Source: Chloroflexota bacterium (GTDB lineage Bacteria; Chloroflexota; Anaerolineae; Anaerolineales; Villigracilaceae). From it: a stretch of DNA of 64,000 nt. Position numbers and translations under genes: made by a program. The DNA lies in NCBI GenBank assembly GCA_016213105.1, contig JACRBN010000010.1:1-64000 (forward strand). The letters are read 5' to 3'. Below, in pieces: positions 484-34,019 of the stretch; the stretch's first letter is position 1; each line of letters opens with the position of its first letter. Below the pieces are notes generated by a model, which was not told the origin of the DNA, made no database searches, and saw only the letters and a list, made by a program, of their open reading frames with translations.

Positions 484-3400
484 CTAATACTCACCCGTAA
501 ACTTCTCGTGGACCCAGAGGAACTCCTGGCGTTTGTTCATTACGCGGACGAGACCGCCAAAGCCAGGGTCTTTGGCTTTGAGCAGGGCGTGGAGTTCGCG
601 CAGGGTTGAGCCGTCAGAGCGGAGGGCGACGCCATGTTCGAGTTTGGTGGAATCCGCGGTGCCGAGGAAGTCGCCGATCTTGGCGGTTTCGCCGAGTGCC
701 CCGTCAATGATGGATTTGCCGAAGGCGAGTTGTTCTTCGATGAGTTTGTAGGCGGTTTCATCCAGCGCGAGTTTGACGGCGGAGGAGGCAACGGGGAGTA
801 CCATGCCCAGCGTGCCTGTCAGGAATTTCAAATAGGGGCTGGCTTTCTTGAACCATTCACGCTCCAGTTCGAGGTCGTAGACGCCTTTCTTCATGTCGCC
901 GTTGTTCAGAACGGGGAGCGGCAGGCGCGAATGTTCACACCATAAGACGAGGCGGAATTTTTCACGAATCCAGGTTCTGGGATTGAACGTTCTGCGGTCA
1001 ACGGGGAAGAAACTGAACAGGCGCGGACCTTCTTTGGCTTCGTCGGTGAGGACTTGCAGCAGGTCGGTATAGGTTTTGTCCACTTGGGAGAGAATGCGGC
1101 GCGAGGTGACGTTGACTTCATCCAGTTTGTCTTTGATGGCGGCGAATTCAGATTGCAAATCCACCAGTGAGATTTGTTGTGCGGCAGCGGGTGCGTTGCG
1201 AAGAAGCAAATCAATATCCTGCCATTTGTTACAAGTGGGACATGGATATTTTGGCTGTCCATCGCGTTTGCTTTCAATCAAATTGCTCACATTATAAAGA
1301 CCTGCGCCAGGCATATTCTTTCCGCAGGGTTCAACGCACGGAACCATCACGTCACAGCGCAAGCCTTCCCAAAAACTTTCGACGAGGAATTTCACTTCAC
1401 GGGTCAACATGCCGAGCAATCCTTCGGGGTACGGCGAGCGGACGGTAATGCGGACGTCGTTGCCCACGTGTTCGAGCAGCGCGCGGTTTTTGTATTCATC
1501 TTCCAGCACCAGCCCGCGCTGCCAGTGGACGCTGGCGTTGTAATCGGCGCGACCGAGGGAATATTTATGCAGGCGGACGATCAACTGGTAGAACAATCCT
1601 TCCGCGCTGGCAGATTGACCGTTGCTCGCGTCCACGATGTGACAGATTTGCGTTTGTTGGATATCACCAGACGCGGGAGAGGTTTTCCACGCGTCGGAAA
1701 TATTCTGCGGGCGGATATCGGGGACGAGTTGGCCGATGAGGCTGGTGGTGTCGGGGCGCAGCGTCGCTGCGCCCGTACGATCGGCGGCAGGATCAGCCAC
1801 ACGGTAGGAAAGATCGAAGCGTTCCATCAGGCGGAGAAAAATCGGGTGAAGAGTCGCTGGGTAACGAGAATCGTCCGCGCGGTTTTCGTCATCCCATAAT
1901 TGAGCGAGGCGCGAGAATTTCACCAAGCCGTGCGCGGTGCGCGTCGCTTCATCGTCGAGGACGTAACTCATGGCGGTGGCGAGCCAGTCGGGACGGAGGA
2001 TGACGATGTCGCGCAGGGTCGGGTCGTTTTCGTAATGCGTGAGATGACCGAGGTGGTGCGAGATGGTGATGAAGAGCCGCGCGATCTCATCATCCATGTT
2101 GTGGGCGCGGCAGATGTCGAGGACTTCACGCAAAGGCAGATACGGCGCGCCCATGTCTTGCAGGGCTTGACGGACATCGGCAAAACTCTTCGGCACGGAG
2201 CGACCGACTTCGGGCAGGCTCGCGGCGACACTGGCAATGGCGCGTTTGAGTTCATCAATGCCTTTGCGATTGCCGTGCGCGTCGGGTTTGCTTTCGACGA
2301 AGAAAAAATCCACGACGGTTTCCTTGCCGAATAAGTCCCAAAGTTCCTGACGATCAATATCGGGCTGACGCTGCTGCGGTCCGCCGTGCGTGGCGACGAC
2401 GAGAATCTTCGCGCTCGGCTCGCGGCGCTTGACGAGTTGAATCCATTCCTTGACTTGTCCTGCCTGCGAACCTTCGCGCGGCTTCCAGACGACGAGATAG
2501 ACGGCGGGTGCGCTGAAGAATAATTGATGTGTGGGACGGTACACCCGCTGTCCGCCAAAGTCCCAGGCGTTGAGGGTGATGGAGGTTTGGGAGTCTATCG
2601 CAGAAATATTTACTTGTTGAATTTCAATACCATGCGTAGAAGATAACCCTTCAACAAATGGCTCGTCACGCAACGCGCTAAGCAAACAAGTCTTGCCTAC
2701 TTCGCCCTCGCCAATGAGGATGAGTTTGGCTTCATTTAGAGTAATTTGTGCAGGGATGTTGGCGTGCAGATAGGTTTTAAGAGCATTTAATCCTTGTTTA
2801 TATGCAGTGGATAGTTCGGGCGTAAAGGGGTTTTCACTGAATTTTATATCGTCAAAACATTTGAGTCTTACTAATTCAGGAGGTAAGTCAGATAATTGAT
2901 TATTGGATATATCTAGCAACTGCAACTGTTCTAAATTACTTAACCACCTTGGTAATATTTTTAGATTATTGTTGGAAATCTCCAATGACCGCAATTGAAT
3001 GAGCCCACTAAATTTTTCTGGAAGAATCGATATGTTGTTACCTATAAGATTTAGAGACAGCAACTGCACTAGTTTCCCAAGCGGCTCTGGAAATGCTGAA
3101 AATTTATTATAGGAAATATTCAAAGACTCTAATCGTGTAAGATCGCCAAATCTCTGCGGAAGTGTTGTTAGTTGATTGTTAGTTAAATCTAATGATCTTA
3201 ATTGGGCAAGGTTGCCAAACGACTCTGGTAGCGATGCAATCTTATTTGCAGATGCATTTATCGATTGTAATTGCGCGAGATTATCAAGCCACTCTGGCAA
3301 GAATGCGAGCTCGTTGTCGGCAATGTCCAAAGATTCTAAATACGCGAGGTGGACAAGAGAGTCTGGTAGCACCTCTAATTTATTGCGACGTAAGTTTAGA

Positions 3401-3543
3401 GATCGTAAAGATATTAACGCTCCAATTGACTCAGGTAGTTCACTTAAATCCATTTTTCCAAGGTTAAGCTTTGTTGCATTTGAATGGATTGCCTCCTCAA
3501 TTAATTTTTCAGCAATACGATATGAGTCATTGTGTAATGCCAT
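484..3543 (-). CDS. Roco family protein A (LRR-Roc-COR GTPase)
   Basis: A 1019-residue cytoplasmic protein. Residues about 24-250 form ten 23-residue leucine-rich repeats of the xxLxxLxLxxNxLxxLPxx type. A Roc GTPase domain follows, with P-loop GEGEVGKT near 276-283, switch II DFGGQ near 331 and a G4-like VATHGG near 386, then a COR dimerisation region to about 700. A cysteine cluster (about 730-790, including CPTC) and a C-terminal block ending with GGLVRVMNKRQEFLW complete it. Roco proteins are dimerisation-regulated GTPases; no kinase domain is present. The LRR part is AT-rich while the GTPase-COR part matches the chromosome. The core is almost identical to the protein encoded at 30804-34019. 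Ligand and output are unknown. The NACHT partner gene expected upstream survives only as scraps. Confidence 0.9.
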   Translation of the reverse strand: MALHNDSYRIAEKLIEEAIHSNATKLNLGKMDLSELPESIGALISLRSLNLRRNKLEVLPDSLVHLAYLESLDIADNELAFLPEWLDNLAQLQSINASANKIASLPESFGNLAQLRSLDLTNNQLTTLPQRFGDLTRLESLNISYNKFSAFPEPLGKLVQLLSLNLIGNNISILPEKFSGLIQLRSLEISNNNLKILPRWLSNLEQLQLLDISNNQLSDLPPELVRLKCFDDIKFSENPFTPELSTAYKQGLNALKTYLHANIPAQITLNEAKLILIGEGEVGKTCLLSALRDEPFVEGLSSTHGIEIQQVNISAIDSQTSITLNAWDFGGQRVYRPTHQLFFSAPAVYLVVWKPREGSQAGQVKEWIQLVKRREPSAKILVVATHGGPQQRQPDIDRQELWDLFGKETVVDFFFVESKPDAHGNRKGIDELKRAIASVAASLPEVGRSVPKSFADVRQALQDMGAPYLPLREVLDICRAHNMDDEIARLFITISHHLGHLTHYENDPTLRDIVILRPDWLATAMSYVLDDEATRTAHGLVKFSRLAQLWDDENRADDSRYPATLHPIFLRLMERFDLSYRVADPAADRTGAATLRPDTTSLIGQLVPDIRPQNISDAWKTSPASGDIQQTQICHIVDASNGQSASAEGLFYQLIVRLHKYSLGRADYNASVHWQRGLVLEDEYKNRALLEHVGNDVRITVRSPYPEGLLGMLTREVKFLVESFWEGLRCDVMVPCVEPCGKNMPGAGLYNVSNLIESKRDGQPKYPCPTCNKWQDIDLLLRNAPAAAQQISLVDLQSEFAAIKDKLDEVNVTSRRILSQVDKTYTDLLQVLTDEAKEGPRLFSFFPVDRRTFNPRTWIREKFRLVLWCEHSRLPLPVLNNGDMKKGVYDLELEREWFKKASPYLKFLTGTLGMVLPVASSAVKLALDETAYKLIEEQLAFGKSIIDGALGETAKIGDFLGTADSTKLEHGVALRSDGSTLRELHALLKAKDPGFGGLVRVMNKRQEFLWVHEKFTGEY

Positions 3544-3671
3544 GATAATTACCTTTTATGGTGACGATAGACCTATCAGATTTTAAGTGAAAATTTAATC
3601 TCAGCGCTTCTTATGTTTTCTTTTCTGCTTGGGAATAGGCTTCATTATGCGGCATGGCCCCCCCTTTCTAA

Positions 3672-3718: not shown

Positions 3719-3743
3719 GATGAATCATTTTTAGTTTCCCTTT
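3719..3743 (-). pseudogene. 3' remnant of a NACHT gene upstream of Roco A
   Basis: Read on the minus strand, these 25 bases are identical to bases 30716-30740 of the intact cassette. That stretch holds the last codons (K-G-N-stop) of the NACHT gene and its spacer to Roco B. The similarity continues imperfectly for about 20 more bases (AAACTC..GTCAAAAA). Together with the 5' scrap at 4299-4433 it shows that a NACHT gene once stood directly upstream of Roco A and lost its middle. Confidence 0.75.
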
Positions 3744-3754
3744 AAGGTCTTAAC

Positions 3755-3870
3755 CATGATTTTCTTGATTTACTTGATTACCATGATGGATTACCCTGAT
3801 TTGCAGGACTCCCAATCAAGGTAATCCTCTAATCCTTTCAATCATGGTTAAGACTTTTCATCATGGTTAA
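3755..3870. repeat. TTGATTACCATGATT-type repeats, proximal copy
   Basis: Reiterated variants of TTGATTACCATGATT and AATCATGGTTAAG run through this stretch and overlap the 3' end of the GxxExxY gene. The same words recur on the other side of that gene at 4240-4320, so the gene is bracketed by related repeats. I have no name for the family. Confidence 0.65.
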
Positions 3871-4240
3871 GAAGCTTGTTATTGTGAACTCTTTTGAATT
3901 GTAAACTCTTTGCGCCGAAATTGATGAGCAGTCCGATCTCCATTTTATACGCTTCGAGATAATTCATGGCCTGGGCGAGGTGGACATCTTCCAATTGAAT
4001 GACGGCTTTGATCTCGACCATGATCAGTTTTTCAACGAAGAAGTCCACGCGGCGGGTGCCGATCTCCTGTCCGCGATAGAAGATGGACATTTCCTTTTCT
4101 GGCTCGAATGCAAGGCTTTGATAGGGCATTTCGATTGTCATTGCGCGCTGGTAGATTTTTTCCTGAAAGCCGTTGCCCAGCGTGGAGTGGACTTTCATGG
4201 CGGCGGCAATAATGCGGCGAGTCAAATCTTCATGTTGCAT
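3848..4240 (-). CDS. GxxExxY family protein
   Basis: A 130-residue soluble protein of the GxxExxY (PDDEXK_3-like) family. The signature is seen as LGNGFQEKIYQ near residues 20-30, and the core RRVDFFVEKLIMVEIKA carries acidic and E-x-K residues in the pattern of PD-(D/E)xK nucleases. Length is typical. I place the start at the ATG at 4238-4240 because the further upstream frame only translates repeat sequence (GNQGNQG). The family has no settled function; nuclease activity is a fold-level inference. The gene occupies the gap left by a deleted NACHT gene and is flanked on both sides by related repeats, so it may have arrived as a repeat-borne cassette. Confidence 0.85.
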   Translation of the reverse strand: MQHEDLTRRIIAAAMKVHSTLGNGFQEKIYQRAMTIEMPYQSLAFEPEKEMSIFYRGQEIGTRRVDFFVEKLIMVEIKAVIQLEDVHLAQAMNYLEAYKMEIGLLINFGAKSLQFKRVHNNKLLNHDEKS

Positions 4241-4254
4241 ACCTTGATTTCCTT

Positions 4255-4287
4255 GATTACCATGATTGGGACCCAATCATGGTAATC
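4255..4287. repeat. Perfect 16-bp inverted repeat
   Basis: Arms GATTACCATGATTGGG and CCCAATCATGGTAATC are perfect complements around a single A. It lies just upstream of the GxxExxY start and is one unit of the repeat family also seen at 3755-3870. It could form a cruciform or mark the boundary of the inserted cassette. Confidence 0.85.
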
Positions 4288-4298
4288 CTCTAATCCTT

Positions 4299-4433
4299 CT
4301 AATCATGGTTGGATTTTTGGATGATGGTTTGCCATGCGGTATTATGATCCCCAATGATGACAACGCCACTCACATCTCCGCTGATGGAGACATTCTTATT
4401 CACAGGAGGAAGAGGCTCGTGATTCGATGTCAT
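4299..4433 (-). pseudogene. 5' remnant of a NACHT gene (44 codons)
   Basis: Read from the ATG at 4431-4433, the frame encodes a short tail, then NKNVSISGDVSGVVIIGDHN, then QTIIQK. The repeat sequence follows and gives a stop at 4299. The intact NACHT protein at 28971 begins with the equivalent DKRISIHGDVSGVVVVGDNN and NKQTIIQK. The match covers the start codon region and about 40 residues, in the same order and with the same spacing. The orientation is the same as Roco A downstream. This is therefore the 5' end of a second NACHT gene whose body has been deleted and replaced by the GxxExxY gene and repeats. Confidence 0.85.
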
Positions 4434-4543
4434 GGCTGTCAGCGGTCATCACCCCGCTGTATGTCAATTATACGTCAGCCTCTTGTAATTTTGCATAAAT
4501 TTCAAGACATTCCTTTTATCTTTCGTTCCCCGCTCCCTCCAAC

Positions 4544-4601: not shown

Positions 4602-5183
4602 CTATCCCTTCAACAACTCGACCTGCTTCTCGGCCTCGGACTCGGGCAGGGCCAGCGAGGGCAGTTCCATCAGCGAGTTGATGCCAAAGTGCTGCAAGAA
4701 CTCGGGCGTGGTCGAGTACAGGATCGGGCGTCCGGGACCGTCGGCGCGGCCCGATTCCAGGATCAGGCCCTTGCTCAACAGGCTCTTCATCATGCCGTCG
4801 CTGTTCACGCCGCGCACCGCGTCGATCTGCGGACGGGTGACGGGCTGCTGGTAGGCAATGATCGCCAGCGTCTCCAGCGCCGCGCGGCTCAGGTGGCTGA
4901 CCGCCTCCAAGCCGAGGAAGCGTTCCACCAGTTCGGCCATCTCGGGGGCCGAGGTCAACTGCACGCGGCCCATATGACGCTGCAACCGCAGGCCGCGGGC
5001 ATGCAGGGATTCCTCCAATTCCTTCAAGCCGCGCTCCACCACGGAATTGGTCACATCCAGGGCGGCCGCCAATTGCGCCAGAGCCACAGGCTCGGGGGCC
5101 ACGAATAACATGGCCTCCAGTTTCACCGCCAGGGTGGGTTCGGCCTGCGGCGCAGGGGTCGGATTGGTTTCAGAGTCGCTCAT
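4602..5183 (-). CDS. scpB: Segregation and condensation protein B
   Basis: A 193-residue ScpB, the winged-helix subunit that bridges the ScpA kleisin in the SMC condensin complex and helps chromosome segregation. Two tandem winged-helix domains are visible. The family block LSRAALETLAIIAYQQPVTR is followed by IDAVRGVNSDGMMKSLLSKG and GRPILYSTTPEFLQHFG, the usual ScpB order. I start at the ATG at 5181-5183 (MSDSETNP); the frame continues upstream but only through a dispersed repeat. The proline- and glutamate-rich N-terminus is likely disordered. scpA is not next to it. A terminator follows. Confidence 0.93.
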   Translation of the reverse strand: MSDSETNPTPAPQAEPTLAVKLEAMLFVAPEPVALAQLAAALDVTNSVVERGLKELEESLHARGLRLQRHMGRVQLTSAPEMAELVERFLGLEAVSHLSRAALETLAIIAYQQPVTRPQIDAVRGVNSDGMMKSLLSKGLILESGRADGPGRPILYSTTPEFLQHFGINSLMELPSLALPESEAEKQVELLKG

Positions 5184-28970: not shown

Positions 28971-30728
28971 ATGCCATCTGACGACCCCTCGAACTCATCT
29001 TCAGATAAGCGCATCTCCATCCACGGAGACGTGAGTGGTGTCGTCGTCGTTGGGGACAACAACGTCGTCAACAAGCAAACCATCATCCAAAAATTCTTCA
29101 ACATCTTCAAAAGCGACGCGGAGACGCTCGAGCATCGCAACCGCCGTATCCTGCTGGGACATGTCGAAAACGCCTGGATCAAAGGCGTACTGGATGCATC
29201 CCTGCACGGCGCGGCATTATTGGACTTGGGAATCAAACAAGACCCCGAAGCGGTGACAAAATATCCGTGGGCGATCAAAAAGGAACCCACTGACGAAACC
29301 CTTCCCGCAGGGACATCCATGCTGGAGATTTTCGACTCCATCGGCATGGGACGTTCCCTGCTGATCCTCGGCGCGCCTGGCTCTGGCAAGACGACCATGC
29401 TGCTGGAACTCGCCCGCGGACTGATTGCCCGCGCCAGAGAAGACATCACCCAGCCCATACCGATGGTGTTCAACCTCGCCTCGTGGACAGAGAAACTCTC
29501 CCTCGCCGAATGGCTGGCGCAGGAGTTGAACAACCTGTACAGCGTCCCGCGCAAGACCGCGCCTGATTGGGTGAAGGGAGATAAGTTACTTTTGCTTTTG
29601 GACGGCTTGGATGAAGTACGACAGGAAAGCCGCGCCAAGTGTGTGGAAGCGATCAATGCCTTTAGAAAAGACCACGGCTTGACCTCGCTTGCCGTGTGCA
29701 GCCGCAGTCAGGATTACGCAGACCTCAACGCAAAATTATCCTTTGAAGGCGCCATTGAAGTCCAGCCGCTGACTCAAAAACAGATCGCTGAGTTCTTCAA
29801 TCGCTTTGGGGATGAGATGGCGGGCATTAAACAAGTTCTCAAAAAGGATAGCGCCCTGCGCGAAATGGCAGAGACACCCTTGTTTTTGAGTATTATGTTG
29901 ATGGCATATCGGAATAAGCACGATATTGAGATTTTAGATTCGCAAGATGAGAAGGCGCAGCGCAAACATCTTTTTGATACTTACACTGAACGCATGTTTG
30001 AGCGCCCACGCTCGAAGAATGTGGATTTCAAAAAACAGGATATATTGCATTGGCTTACTTGGCAAGCCAGCATAATGAAAGAAAATAACCTATATCAATA
30101 TTTGCTTAAAGATATGCAGCCCGAGTGGCTAACTTCAGGTTCCTGGCTACAGAAAAGATATTGGATTATTTTGGGATCAATTACAGGGTTATTGGCGAGT
30201 CTATTTTATTGGTTATTTGGTGCATGGATGTTGGGAGTTTTTATGGGATTGGTTGTTTTTTTTGTTGTCATTGTTTCACACGATTTAATTGGTCTCTTCT
30301 TTGAATACAAGGGAAGTATTTGGGGGGAATCAAAAAAAGTTGCAGGATGGGGATTATTAATTGGAATTGCCATGGGATTCGCCTTTGGATTGGAGTTCTG
30401 GCTGGAACGTAATTCCATACTAGATTTGGTTAACTTACCTATTTATGAATTAACAAACATAATGAAGGCTTGTTTGGCAATGGGATTAATAATTGGAGTG
30501 TCCATATGGTTCATGTTTGCTGGCATAAACTTAATTAACCATTACGTTCTACGCATGGTTTTAATAATTGACAAGAAAATCCCGTGGAGACTCGTCCCCT
30601 TCCTCGACCACTGCGTTGACCTGATCTTCCTGCGCCGCGTCGGTGGCGGATATATCTTCGTCCACCGCCTGTTGATGGAACACTTCGCTGAAATGTACGT
30701 GGAAATCCCAACATCAAAGGGAAACTAA
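28971..30728 (+). CDS. NACHT-domain STAND NTPase with membrane C-terminus
   Basis: A 585-residue protein. The N-terminus carries ISIHGDVSGVVVVGDNN, a repeat-like strand motif common ahead of NACHT domains in multicellular-type bacteria. The NACHT domain has Walker A GAPGSGKTTM near 134-143 and Walker B LLLLLDGLDEV near 206-216, then CSRSQDY. After about residue 395 four or so hydrophobic helices follow (to about 520). The end has the conserved FLRRVGGGYIFVHRLLMEHF. STAND NTPases act as signal-triggered switches, several of them in phage defence or cell death. The membrane part is AT-rich relative to the rest. It sits 75 bases upstream of Roco B. The role as a partner is inferred from the duplicated cassette. 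Confidence 0.9.
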   Translation: MPSDDPSNSSSDKRISIHGDVSGVVVVGDNNVVNKQTIIQKFFNIFKSDAETLEHRNRRILLGHVENAWIKGVLDASLHGAALLDLGIKQDPEAVTKYPWAIKKEPTDETLPAGTSMLEIFDSIGMGRSLLILGAPGSGKTTMLLELARGLIARAREDITQPIPMVFNLASWTEKLSLAEWLAQELNNLYSVPRKTAPDWVKGDKLLLLLDGLDEVRQESRAKCVEAINAFRKDHGLTSLAVCSRSQDYADLNAKLSFEGAIEVQPLTQKQIAEFFNRFGDEMAGIKQVLKKDSALREMAETPLFLSIMLMAYRNKHDIEILDSQDEKAQRKHLFDTYTERMFERPRSKNVDFKKQDILHWLTWQASIMKENNLYQYLLKDMQPEWLTSGSWLQKRYWIILGSITGLLASLFYWLFGAWMLGVFMGLVVFFVVIVSHDLIGLFFEYKGSIWGESKKVAGWGLLIGIAMGFAFGLEFWLERNSILDLVNLPIYELTNIMKACLAMGLIIGVSIWFMFAGINLINHYVLRMVLIIDKKIPWRLVPFLDHCVDLIFLRRVGGGYIFVHRLLMEHFAEMYVEIPTSKGN

Positions 30729-30740
30729 AAATGATTCATC
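30716..30740 (+). repeat. NACHT-tail/spacer segment duplicated upstream of Roco A
   Basis: Spans the last codons of the NACHT gene and the first bases of the spacer to Roco B. It is identical on the opposite strand to 3719-3743. Confidence 0.85.
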
Positions 30741-30803: not shown

Positions 30804-33800
30804 ATGTCGTATGATGATAAAGCGTATAAGGAAGCAAAAGAGAAATTGGAATTAGCGAGGCAGTTTGGAGCAAAGGGAGCATATCATAAAGCAGAGAAGA
30901 AGATTGCTGCGACACTGCGCTCAGGAGAAATAGAATTAAGTCTCCAAAATTTCGAACTTGCAGAAATACCTGAGTCATTGGGTCAACTAACTCAGCTACA
31001 AAAGCTTGATCTCTCAAACAACCTGCTGACAGCCTTGCCAGAGGCGCTATGGCAGCTCACACAGTTGCAATCGTTGAATCTCAGCCAAAATCAATTGACG
31101 ACATTGCCAGACACGCTAGGGCAACTCATGCAGTTGGAAAAATTAAATCTCTCCAACAACCAACTGACCATATTGCCAGAGACACTGGGACAAATAAAGC
31201 GGCTACAAGAATTAGATCTTGCAAGTAATAAACTAACAACATTACCAGGGTCCCTAGGAGAACTCATCAACTTAGAATTTTTACACCTTACTGGTAACAA
31301 CCTTACTCATTTACCAGAGTCGCTTAGCAGATCAAGCAAGTTGAAAAAGCTTCATCTCGCTTACAACTTATTTAGAGACTTGCCAGGCTGGTTGAGCAAT
31401 TTTACGCAACTAGAATTATTAGATGTTTTCAACAACAACTTAACAACATTACCAGAGATACTATATCAACTTACCAACCTGAAACAACTTGATTGCTCTT
31501 ACAACAAAGGTCTAAGCATACCAACATGGATTAACCAACTCGTTGGATTAAACGAGTTATATTTTTACGAAAACCAACTTACATTTATACCTGATGCTGT
31601 TGGGGATCTTAGATTATTACATTCTCTAAACTTGATGGGAAACCATCTTACAGAAATACCACTTTCGATAATTAACCTTGAAGACTTACAAGAAATCAGC
31701 CTAAATAATAATCCCCTCAATCCTGAACTCGCCGAGGCATACAAACAAGGTCTTGAAGGCGTCAAAGCCTATCTTCGAGTCAAAGCCGAATCGCAACTTA
31801 TACTCAATGAGTCCAAACTTATCATTGTTGGCGAAGGCGAAGTCGGAAAAACCTGTTTACTTGACGCTCTACTCGACAAACCATTCCAACCCCACGAATC
31901 CACTCACGGCATAGAAATCCAATCTTTCAACGTCACTACCGACACCCAAACCGAAATCACCCTCAACGCCTGGGACTTTGGCGGACAGCGGGTGTACCGT
32001 CCCACACATCAATTATTCTTCAGCGCACCCGCCGTCTATCTCGTCGTGTGGAAGCCGCGTGAAGGTTCGCAGGCAGGACAGGTCAAGGAATGGATTCAAC
32101 TCGTCAAGCGCCGCGAGCCGAGTGCGAAGATTCTCGTCGTCGCCACGCACGGCGGACCGCAGCAGCGTCAACCCGATATTGACCGTCAGGAACTGTGGGA
32201 CTTGTTCGGCAAGGAAACCGTCGTGGACTTTTTCTTCGTCGAAAGCAAACCCGACGCGCAGGGCAACCGCAAAGGCATTGATGAACTCAAACGCGCCATT
32301 GCCAGTGTCGCCGCGAGCCTGCCCGAAGTCGGTCGCTCCGTGCCGAAGAGTTTTGCCGATGTCCGTCAAGCCCTGCAAGACAAAGGCGCGCCGTATCTGC
32401 CTTTGCGTGAAGTCCTCGATATCTGCCGCGCCCACAACATGGATGATGAAATCGCGCGGCTCTTCATCATCATCTCGCACCGCCTCGGTCATCTCACGCA
32501 TTACGAAAACGACCCGACCCTGCGCGACATCGTCATCCTCCGTCCCGACTGGCTCGCCACCGCCATGAGTTACGTTCTCGATGATGAAGCGACTCGCGCC
32601 GCGCATGGCTTGGTAAAATTCTCGCGCCTCGCTCAATTATGGGATGACAAAAACCGAGCAGATGACTCCCGCTATCCAGCGCCTCTGCACTCGATCTTTC
32701 TCCGCCTGATGGAACGCTTCGATCTTTCCTACCGTGTGGCTGATCTGACATCCCGAAGCGACTCTGACCCGATCAGTCTCATCGGTCAACTCGTCCCCGA
32801 CATCCGCCCGCAAAATATTTCCGACGCGTGGAAAACATCTCCCGCGTCGGGTGATATCCAGCAAACACAGATCTGTCACATCGTGGACGCAAGCAACGGT
32901 CAATCCGCCAGCGCAGAAGGATTGTTCTACCAGTTGATCGTCCGCCTGCATAAATATTCGCTCGGTCGCGCCGATTACAACGCCAGCGTCCACTGGCAGC
33001 GCGGGCTGGTGCTCGACAACGCCTATAACGGACGTGCCTTCCTCCAACACATCGGCAACGATGTCCATATCACCGTCCGCGCTCCGTACCCTGAATTCTT
33101 CCTTGGTATGCTGACGAGCGAGGTTAAATATCTAGTCGAAAGTTTCTGGGAGGGCTTGCGCTGTGAAGTCACGGTGCCATGTCTTAACTCAAAACCATGT
33201 ATTGGCCTGTTCGCAATTGAGAAACTAATCGAGAACAAACGGCGCGGGCGGCCCGAAGTTCCCTGCCCCGTGTGCAACGAGTGGGAAAGCATTGATCGAC
33301 TTCTGCTCAATGCGCCTGCCGCCACCCAACCCATCTCGCTGGATTATCTGCAAAAGGAATTCGCCCAGGTCAAAGACAAGCTGGATGAGGTCAACACCAA
33401 TACGCAACGCGTGCTGAGTCAGGTGGACAAACAGTTCGCCGACTTGATCCAACTCTACACGGACGACGCCAAGGAAGGTCCGCGCCTGTTCAGCCTCTTC
33501 CCGTTGGACGGCAACAAATTCAACCCCCAAACCTGGGTGCGCGAAAATTTCCGCCTGGTGCTGTGGTGCGAACATTCACGCCTGCCCCTGCCTGCCATCA
33601 ACGGCATCGACAGCAAAAAGGGTGTCTACGACTTCGAACTCGACCGTGAATGGTTCAAACGGGCGGCTCCTTTCCTAAAATTCATGACGGGCACATTGAG
33701 TCTCGTCTTGCCCATGATGTCTTCCACCCTCAAAGTAGTGGATGCCACCGCCTTCAAATCACTGGAAAATCAACTCAGCCTGGGCAAAAGCGCCATCGAC

Positions 33801-34019
33801 TTCTTCTCTGGCGAAGGCTCTGCGCTGAAAGACGTGATGGGACCCGCCGACACCACCTCATTGGAACGCGGCGTCGGCCTCCGCGCCGATGGCTCCACCT
33901 TGCGCGAACTCCACGCCCTGCTCAAAGCCAAAGACCCTGGCTTCGGCGGTCTCGTCCGCGTGATGAACAAACGCCAGGAGTTCCTTTGGGTCCACGAGAA
34001 GTTTGCGGGTGAGTATTAG
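30804..34019 (+). CDS. Roco family protein B (LRR-Roc-COR GTPase)
   Basis: A 1071-residue paralogue of the protein encoded at 484-3543. It has a charged N-terminal helix, then twelve 23-residue leucine-rich repeats (about residues 45-315) and a Roc domain (P-loop GEGEVGKT near 343-350, DFGGQ near 391, VATHGG). The COR region, a cysteine cluster (VPCLNSKPC, CPVC) and the same C-terminal block ending GGLVRVMNKRQEFLW follow. From DFGGQ onward the two proteins are almost identical for about 350 residues. They drift apart and converge again in the last 45. The LRR modules differ in number and sequence and are AT-rich. GGAAGGGAG precedes the ATG. Probably co-transcribed with the NACHT gene. Confidence 0.92.
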   Translation: MSYDDKAYKEAKEKLELARQFGAKGAYHKAEKKIAATLRSGEIELSLQNFELAEIPESLGQLTQLQKLDLSNNLLTALPEALWQLTQLQSLNLSQNQLTTLPDTLGQLMQLEKLNLSNNQLTILPETLGQIKRLQELDLASNKLTTLPGSLGELINLEFLHLTGNNLTHLPESLSRSSKLKKLHLAYNLFRDLPGWLSNFTQLELLDVFNNNLTTLPEILYQLTNLKQLDCSYNKGLSIPTWINQLVGLNELYFYENQLTFIPDAVGDLRLLHSLNLMGNHLTEIPLSIINLEDLQEISLNNNPLNPELAEAYKQGLEGVKAYLRVKAESQLILNESKLIIVGEGEVGKTCLLDALLDKPFQPHESTHGIEIQSFNVTTDTQTEITLNAWDFGGQRVYRPTHQLFFSAPAVYLVVWKPREGSQAGQVKEWIQLVKRREPSAKILVVATHGGPQQRQPDIDRQELWDLFGKETVVDFFFVESKPDAQGNRKGIDELKRAIASVAASLPEVGRSVPKSFADVRQALQDKGAPYLPLREVLDICRAHNMDDEIARLFIIISHRLGHLTHYENDPTLRDIVILRPDWLATAMSYVLDDEATRAAHGLVKFSRLAQLWDDKNRADDSRYPAPLHSIFLRLMERFDLSYRVADLTSRSDSDPISLIGQLVPDIRPQNISDAWKTSPASGDIQQTQICHIVDASNGQSASAEGLFYQLIVRLHKYSLGRADYNASVHWQRGLVLDNAYNGRAFLQHIGNDVHITVRAPYPEFFLGMLTSEVKYLVESFWEGLRCEVTVPCLNSKPCIGLFAIEKLIENKRRGRPEVPCPVCNEWESIDRLLLNAPAATQPISLDYLQKEFAQVKDKLDEVNTNTQRVLSQVDKQFADLIQLYTDDAKEGPRLFSLFPLDGNKFNPQTWVRENFRLVLWCEHSRLPLPAINGIDSKKGVYDFELDREWFKRAAPFLKFMTGTLSLVLPMMSSTLKVVDATAFKSLENQLSLGKSAIDFFSGEGSALKDVMGPADTTSLERGVGLRADGSTLRELHALLKAKDPGFGGLVRVMNKRQEFLWVHEKFAGEY

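Follow-up and report, generated by a model that had tools for sequence, protein, structure and literature searches.

The region upstream of Roco A in the window (the whole 64,000-nt stretch of DNA that was analysed) is, with a probability that we put at about 0.7, a decayed NACHT-Roco cassette in which an element bearing a GxxExxY gene inserted into the 3' end of the NACHT gene and the NACHT body was lost afterwards. The window would then be a dated case of an insertion into an immune gene followed by loss of that gene. On a wider proposal our odds are about even: GxxExxY genes may be the enzymes of small chromosomal mobile elements that are widespread in bacteria and archaea and whose inverted ends are built from three or four units of ~7 nt at a spacing of ~9 nt, element-specific in sequence and alike at both ends, and one lineage of these elements may home to the region 5' of Roco immune genes, where it breaks and reshapes NACHT-Roco defence loci. 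Mobility of the element, its homing and the signalling discussed below are what we infer; if one element lineage does prefer Roco genes, it would provide a direct route to the remodelling of immune loci. Read from high to low coordinates, the order on the minus strand is ScpB-like gene, leader, NACHT 5' ORF, GxxExxY gene, NACHT end, relic Roco start and Roco A, and the features of the window are as follows.

4602-5183, minus strand: ScpB-like gene, named by eye from its translation; synteny with the congener G001 ends here.
4467-4476, minus strand: promoter-like box, GACGTATAAT, in a leader that also precedes a different gene in G001.
4299-4433, minus strand: ORF of 44 codons, comprising NACHT codons 1 to ~41 (4313-4433) and then element bases up to the stop.
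~3747-4310, minus strand: GxxExxY element, from AACCATGATT... to ...AATCATGGTTAAGAC; the outermost GTCTT of its relatives is absent at this end.
4255-4287, no strand: hairpin at the left element end, with 16-nt arms, 100% complementary and 1 nt apart.
3848-4240, minus strand: GxxExxY gene, 130 aa, with a predicted PD-(D/E)XK nuclease fold (profile matches and structure model).
3744-3857, no strand: hairpin at the right element end, with arms at 3744-3761 and 3840-3857 that are 94% complementary.
3719-3743, minus strand: final NACHT codons, stop and spacer, identical to 30716-30740.
3611-3655, minus strand: start of a relic Roco gene, MPHNEAYSQAEKKT and a stop, between the NACHT remnant and Roco A.
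484-3543, minus strand: Roco A, 1019 aa, with LRR, Roc, COR-A and COR-B.
28971-30728, plus strand: intact NACHT B, 585 aa, with a motif at residues ~13-38.
30804-34019, plus strand: Roco B, 1071 aa.

The first-pass annotation had placed the first codons of a NACHT gene upstream of Roco A on the same strand, and these are real: minus-strand 4433-4299 translates to MTSNHEPLPPVNKNVSISGDVSGVVIIGDHNTAWQTIIQKSNHD and a stop, of which 4313-4433 accounts for the ~41 NACHT codons. When the fragment was aligned with the N-terminus of the intact protein, as had been suggested, its 41 residues scored 89, a value reached by none of 2000 shuffles (highest 48). At the DNA level the left remnant matches the intact NACHT gene at 63 of 81 positions (78%, E 4e-12), while the right remnant, together with the spacer and Roco start, matches the intact copy at 95 of 130 (73%, E 5e-17), and the reported identity of 3719-3743 to the end and spacer of the NACHT gene at 28971 extends over all 25 bases. 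Besides itself, 3700-4440 matches the two ends of the NACHT gene at 28971 and one internal palindrome in the whole genome. The extent given for the short ORF has to be amended, as the last 12 bases (4299-4310) belong to the inserted element. The NACHT body is missing, as had been claimed, but the gap is not empty: the GxxExxY gene and its flanking repeats lie between the two remnants.

A better match of the 5' fragment to a different NACHT family than to the neighbour at 28971 would have spoken against this origin, and no such family emerged. The best match is a free-standing N-terminal fragment of the same family in the genome G023 (26 of 40 residues identical, score 120), with the NACHT at 28971 behind it (19 of 29, score 89). 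The N-terminus of the G016 NACHT is not the closest (21 of 37 identical) although the Roco proteins of the two loci are 90% identical, and this we count against the history proposed here. The G023 fragment (L199, 4496-4651) is a 51-codon NACHT N-terminus that stands directly before an hsdM-like gene. Several further genomes have kept end pieces alone of NACHT or Roco genes (L198 in G053, L203 in G059, L191 in G026 and L192 in G025), which indicates that these loci often decay by internal deletion.

A different view of the short N-terminal ORFs is that they are small genes whose motif peptides act as regulators or seeds when NACHT or Roco proteins that bear the motif assemble. A start codon, the motif and an in-frame stop occur together in the window (44 codons), in G416 (53 codons) and in G023 (51 codons, before the hsdM-like gene), and the window's copy is preceded by a leader with a promoter-like box. 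However, ends of this kind are left in any case when a gene is deleted from within, and 40 to 50 codons that stay open are weak evidence. Moreover, dN for the window's ORF is 0.34-0.45 in its 6 comparisons as against 0.16-0.33 in the other 15 pairs, which is expected of a relic and lends no support to selection on the free-standing ORF of the window. We consider it very unlikely that these ORFs are genes in their own right.

The 43-nt leader itself, with its TATAAT box and GC hairpin, lies at 4434-4500 before the NACHT fragment and recurs in G001 (L378, 13220-13330); the match between the two scores 41, which 0 of 2000 shuffles reached. The window's scpB is 92% identical to that of G001 and 67% identical to that of G016, and synteny between G001 and the window ends at 4537, just beyond scpB, after which the gene sets differ. 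In G001 the gene behind the leader looks by eye like hsdM and differs from the gene in the window. It is possible, judging from these alignments, that one leader has had different defence genes swapped behind it.

How the NACHT gene was lost can be read from its relatives, which were sought in 61 genomes of the window's family (its own genome included) and, class-wide, in 396 genomes, the latter being the source of G416. Among the 61 family genomes, close NACHTs were found in G016, in G046 and on contig C2 of the window's own genome, with a more distant match in G007; Rocos of the same type were found in G016, G046, G057, G028, G008 and G060, and again more distantly in G007. In G016, which represents another genus, the order is NACHT, GxxExxY, Roco, and a NACHT gene that is otherwise close to full length carries the same element in its 3' end, with the same right junction as in the window (GGTTAAGACCTCAAAGGG in G016 and GGTTAAGACCTTAAAGGG in the window); the NACHT frame reaches ...MEHFAE and is then interrupted by CGTCTTAACC. 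G046 has the empty site, CACTTCGCTGAAATGTACGCGG. In G416 a NACHT fragment of ~52 codons (in an ORF of 53 codons) stands to the left of the element and is followed by the GxxExxY and Roco genes, and the original right side is kept, GGTTAAGAC and then AAATGTACGTGG. Since G016 has the insertion without the loss, insertion preceded the loss of the NACHT body.

The simplest history, as far as the sequences can tell it, would be that the element entered the NACHT 3' end and that the NACHT body was lost afterwards. In a first and well-supported step, an element of ~0.6 kb with the ends GTCTTAACC...GGTTAAGAC would have inserted among the final codons of a NACHT gene that preceded a Roco gene. In a second step, likewise well supported, a later deletion in the window's lineage would have removed the NACHT body, beginning at about codon 41 and running as far as the element's fifth base; a short N-terminal ORF, the element and a Roco gene with an open frame would have remained. 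The NACHT gene had earlier been described as excised; the body was indeed lost, but not in a single clean event, for the loss abuts the inserted element, and a clean excision leaving nothing is ruled out by the GxxExxY gene in the gap. The deletions in the window and in G416 may be either one shared deletion plus a smaller one in the window, or two. In the Roco tree, G046 clusters with G416 (94/93) among the carriers despite having no element, which implies loss of the element from G046, more than one insertion, or recombination between the loci; this, too, counts against the proposed history.

The claim that a NACHT-Roco unit existed twice, and that one copy lost its NTPase while its Roco frame (1019 aa) stayed open, agrees with these data. 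Both large proteins belong to the Roco family, with Roc followed by COR: in the two, Roc scores 84.6 and 84.9 bits, COR-A 109.8 and 112.2, and COR-B 76.6 and 82.0, and the NACHT domain of NACHT B (PF05729) scores 44.5 bits against a cut-off of 26.7. The named models of antiphage bNACHT proteins gave 30 bits for EruA against its cut-off of 1000 and, as the best PADLOC score, 25.6 bits without a stated cut-off; a known defence system at the locus was rejected, as none of the named models exceeded its own cut-off.

The further claim that the pair had been duplicated together does not hold. Over its C-terminal ~730 residues, Roco A is 90.4% identical to the Roco of G016, 87.4% to that of G046 and 80.9% to Roco B. 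In a tree from which G028, one of 13 sequences, was left out (its P-loop was not found by the search pattern), Roco A joins G016 at 100/99 and Roco B falls outside Roco A, G016, G046 and G416 (98/99 for all five). A recent duplication of the NACHT-Roco pair within this genome would account for the presence of both pairs in one 64-kb window and for the spacer sequence common to both, but it is rejected by these identities and this branching, and we regard it as extremely improbable. Transfer is likely, given that Roco A is nearer to the Roco of G016 (90.4%) than the scpB genes of their hosts are to each other (67%). On sequence comparison, the two cassettes are old lineages that probably arrived separately, and their joint presence therefore does not show that NACHT and Roco were duplicated together.

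The gene in the gap clearly belongs to the GxxExxY family, scoring 133.9 bits with TIGR04256 (cut-off 35) and 130.2 with PF13366, PDDEXK_3 (cut-off 22). The structure model of its product has a mean pLDDT of 93.4 and a pTM of 0.84, and its best match in the PDB, and the sole one below E 0.001, is chain B of 4ic1 (SSO0001; E 6.6e-4), which we take to be Cas4; weaker structural matches are to LHK exonuclease and then to Argonaute-associated Cas4-family proteins. Among 35 sequences, H18, E27, Y30, D66, E76 and Y94 are invariant and K78 and Q90 are at least 90% conserved, and the D, E-x-K and Q-x3-Y residues presumably constitute a PD-(D/E)XK motif of the Cas4/lambda-exonuclease type. By the core fold of the model and these motif residues, the predicted protein falls in the Cas4/lambda-exonuclease type of PD-(D/E)XK enzymes. 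The gene is present in 51 of the 61 family genomes by gene count. It is rare on mobile carriers, with 8 of 72,556 plasmid records and 2 of 50,697 phage records, and no vehicle was seen; there is thus little sign of phage or plasmid carriage. Genes are commonly annotated as GxxExxY without any function being assigned, and a nuclease gene between phased inverted ends would give the family a testable mobile or homing role.

Folded as RNA, the window's element outperforms all of 100 shuffles (z -4.1) and shows a hairpin at each end; it has terminal inverted repeats, the ends of its subtype being those given above for the first step. Such repeats accompany the gene family at large. From 116 GxxExxY loci gathered in the window's family, 113 with flanks of at least 150 nt were scored (3 were dropped for short flanks), and an inverted repeat across the gene scoring at least 24 was found in 107 of them, as against 8 of 110 distal stretches 700-1000 nt away; in further controls, this threshold was reached by 95 of 904 cross-locus pairs and by 71 of 2000 random places. 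The arms are built of units of ~7 nt spaced ~9 nt (lag-9 identity 0.412 versus 0.275 in distal sequence), and the sequence of the unit varies by element (CACAGAG, CGCGAAG, CGCCAAG, CACGAAT, CGCGGAT, CATGATT and others) and agrees at both ends of each. Among 80 loci from named genomes, 2 were dropped for short flanks and 63 of the remaining 78 scored at least 24, compared with 5 of 61 distal controls. These 78 come from Planctomycetota, Bacteroidota, Acidobacteria, Chloroflexota, Proteobacteria, Verrucomicrobia and others, and include three archaeal records, of which Methanophagales and one Methanothrix pass and one Methanothrix fails. Below the threshold are 6 of the 113 family loci and 15 of the 78 others; units are nevertheless visible by eye in L261, L269 and L276 among these 15, with none in L259 or L265, and conversely L303 and L313 pass without phased units.

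Repeats of this kind may be familiar from GxxExxY genes in public genomes, but we found no description of them in the passages of open-licence papers that were examined. TIGR04256 and PF13366 cover the protein only; the flanking period-9 inverted repeats are an addition of this analysis. Target-site duplication is not general: outer direct repeats were seen in 3 of 93 loci and are apparently further repeat arms, which rejects long target duplications as a general mark of the element, and duplications of 2-3 bases would still be compatible with these data. Roco start codons (~30 nt) flank the element on both sides in G028 (L190) and G026 (L191). On contig C17 of the window's own genome (L009, 1096-1446), four tandem ~83-nt copies of palindromic repeats adjoin a GxxExxY gene that did not pass the inverted-repeat test.

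Nucleases at least ~86% identical to that of the window occur in eight loci (G000, G016, G028, G026, G025, G005, G416 and G286), and a Roco gene or remnant adjoins the element in all eight. A Roco gene follows in G000, G016, G028, G416 and G286, and remnants are present in G026 and G025 (by tblastn) and in G005 (where N-terminal codons only were read); a NACHT gene or fragment stands upstream in 3 of the 8. The tblastn survey took in 196 family and other-source loci, and the three with Roc-COR were all of the window's type, while none of 191 GxxExxY loci of other types had Roc-COR in the flanks examined. More distant nucleases (58-67% identical; G225, G409 and G313) likewise had no Roco match.

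The constancy of this association allows another explanation, namely that the NACHT gene was lost by ordinary deletion, that the GxxExxY gene travels as an unrelated passenger, moving only with the Roco gene when whole islands are transferred, and that the repeats represent an ancient regulatory or structural trait rather than the ends of a mobile element. Adjacency to Roco in 8 of 8 loci fits a passenger, as does the finding that target duplications are not general and that the gene is almost absent from plasmids and phages. However, G286, which belongs to another family, has a nuclease 90% identical to that of the window next to a Roco that is only 32% identical (its scpB is 53% identical), which suggests independent movement of the element. 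In addition, the 191 other GxxExxY loci have different repeat units and lie away from Rocos, and the element breaks the NACHT reading frame in G016 and G416. Passive carriage therefore appears unlikely to us. Under the preferred reading, that the GxxExxY gene belongs to a mobile element, this lineage would favour sites 5' of Roco genes, and the nuclease, as modelled, would have the hairpin-forming ends or a target cut as its substrate.

Small chromosomal genes between palindromic repeats have precedents. In REP/RAYT elements, a nuclease-type gene lies between chromosomal palindromic repeats and encodes a tyrosine transposase; the enzyme here differs in being of the PD-(D/E)XK type. The 23S rRNA intervening sequences (S23/IVP, PF05635) resemble the GxxExxY elements in having a small ORF between phased inverted arms, but the IVP protein is unrelated, and the window's element lies between NACHT and Roco remnants rather than in an rRNA gene. 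In the same 61 genomes, inverted arms were found at 26 of 30 IVP loci as against 1 of 24 distal stretches, and the arm period is exactly 7 (0.54, 0.53 and 0.48 at lags 7, 14 and 21), compared with 9 for GxxExxY. These arms with the exact 7-nt period belong to IVP genes outside rRNA (L325-L354), and the gene occurs in 56 of the 61 genomes. The intervening sequence of Coxiella 23S rRNA, with its small ORF between inverted arms, is called a selfish genetic element in its description (PMC4990558).

What the NACHT and Roco proteins do together is a separate question. They may belong to a STAND/AP-GTPase immune locus where the N-terminal motif of the NACHT signals to partners bearing the same motif; after the loss of its NACHT, Roco A would either act by itself or join an unlinked NACHT, the one at 28971 or the one on contig C2. 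The Rocos share the LRR-Roc-COR architecture and variable C-terminal effector position described for bacterial AP-GTPase (Roco) conflict systems, and section 15 of that account mentions neither a NACHT partner gene nor a C-terminal amyloid-like motif for them (PMC8195603). The N-terminal motif of the NACHTs is I-G-G-D-V-x-x-S-x-I-I-x-G-D-x-N. A pattern scan of 203 loci (800,141 bases in six frames) gave 11 distinct matches, at NACHT N-termini, in free fragments, at the extreme C-termini of two Rocos and at one site in another frame, and a profile of nine motif examples had matches in 27 of the 61 genomes at E <= 0.01. The motif stands at the C-terminus of five COR-bearing proteins of 637-793 aa (in G046, on contig C10 of the window's own genome, where the Roco has 773 aa, and in G001, G025 and G008), and it is absent from Roco A and Roco B. 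In G046 a 793-aa Roco ending in the motif lies directly upstream of the NACHT gene, whose N-terminus has the same motif in the form IGGDVxxSxIISGDxN.

This arrangement is reminiscent of BASS amyloid signalling, in which pairs are defined by the same motif at the N-terminus of an NLR and the C-terminus of a neighbouring protein (PMC8086366). The likeness, read from sequence, extends to the NACHT N-terminus and neighbouring Roco C-terminus of G046; the differences are that the C-terminal carrier here is a Roco protein and that Roco A and Roco B are without the motif. We found no description of a Roco C-terminal motif among the open-licence papers searched. A motif common to NACHT N-termini and Roco C-termini would offer a concrete hypothesis for cross-talk between two immune NTPases. 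A NACHT-Roco link thus appears plausible for the shorter Roco class, and the case for the pair in the window is only circumstantial. The first-pass annotation had argued from duplication that the two proteins work together; that argument falls, and what support there is comes indirectly, from recurring adjacency and from the motif in a different Roco class. The search that it proposed for further NACHT-Roco neighbours showed the two genes to be adjacent also in G016 and G046, and G416 has a NACHT 5' fragment, GxxExxY and Roco in that order.

The motif also appears in other settings. Ten genomes have a motif-bearing ORF of 136-184 aa at a distance of 2.2-3.2 kb past the start of a NACHT match (eight of the ten were read), and in G014 a 157-aa protein with a C-terminal motif precedes an 882-aa frame that opens with a weak form of the motif (17 bits). 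On contig C2 of the window's own genome (L202, 5700-5950), the reading that follows the second NACHT, RSIIAGKENEVKK and a stop, resembles by eye the end of a motif-bearing Roco.
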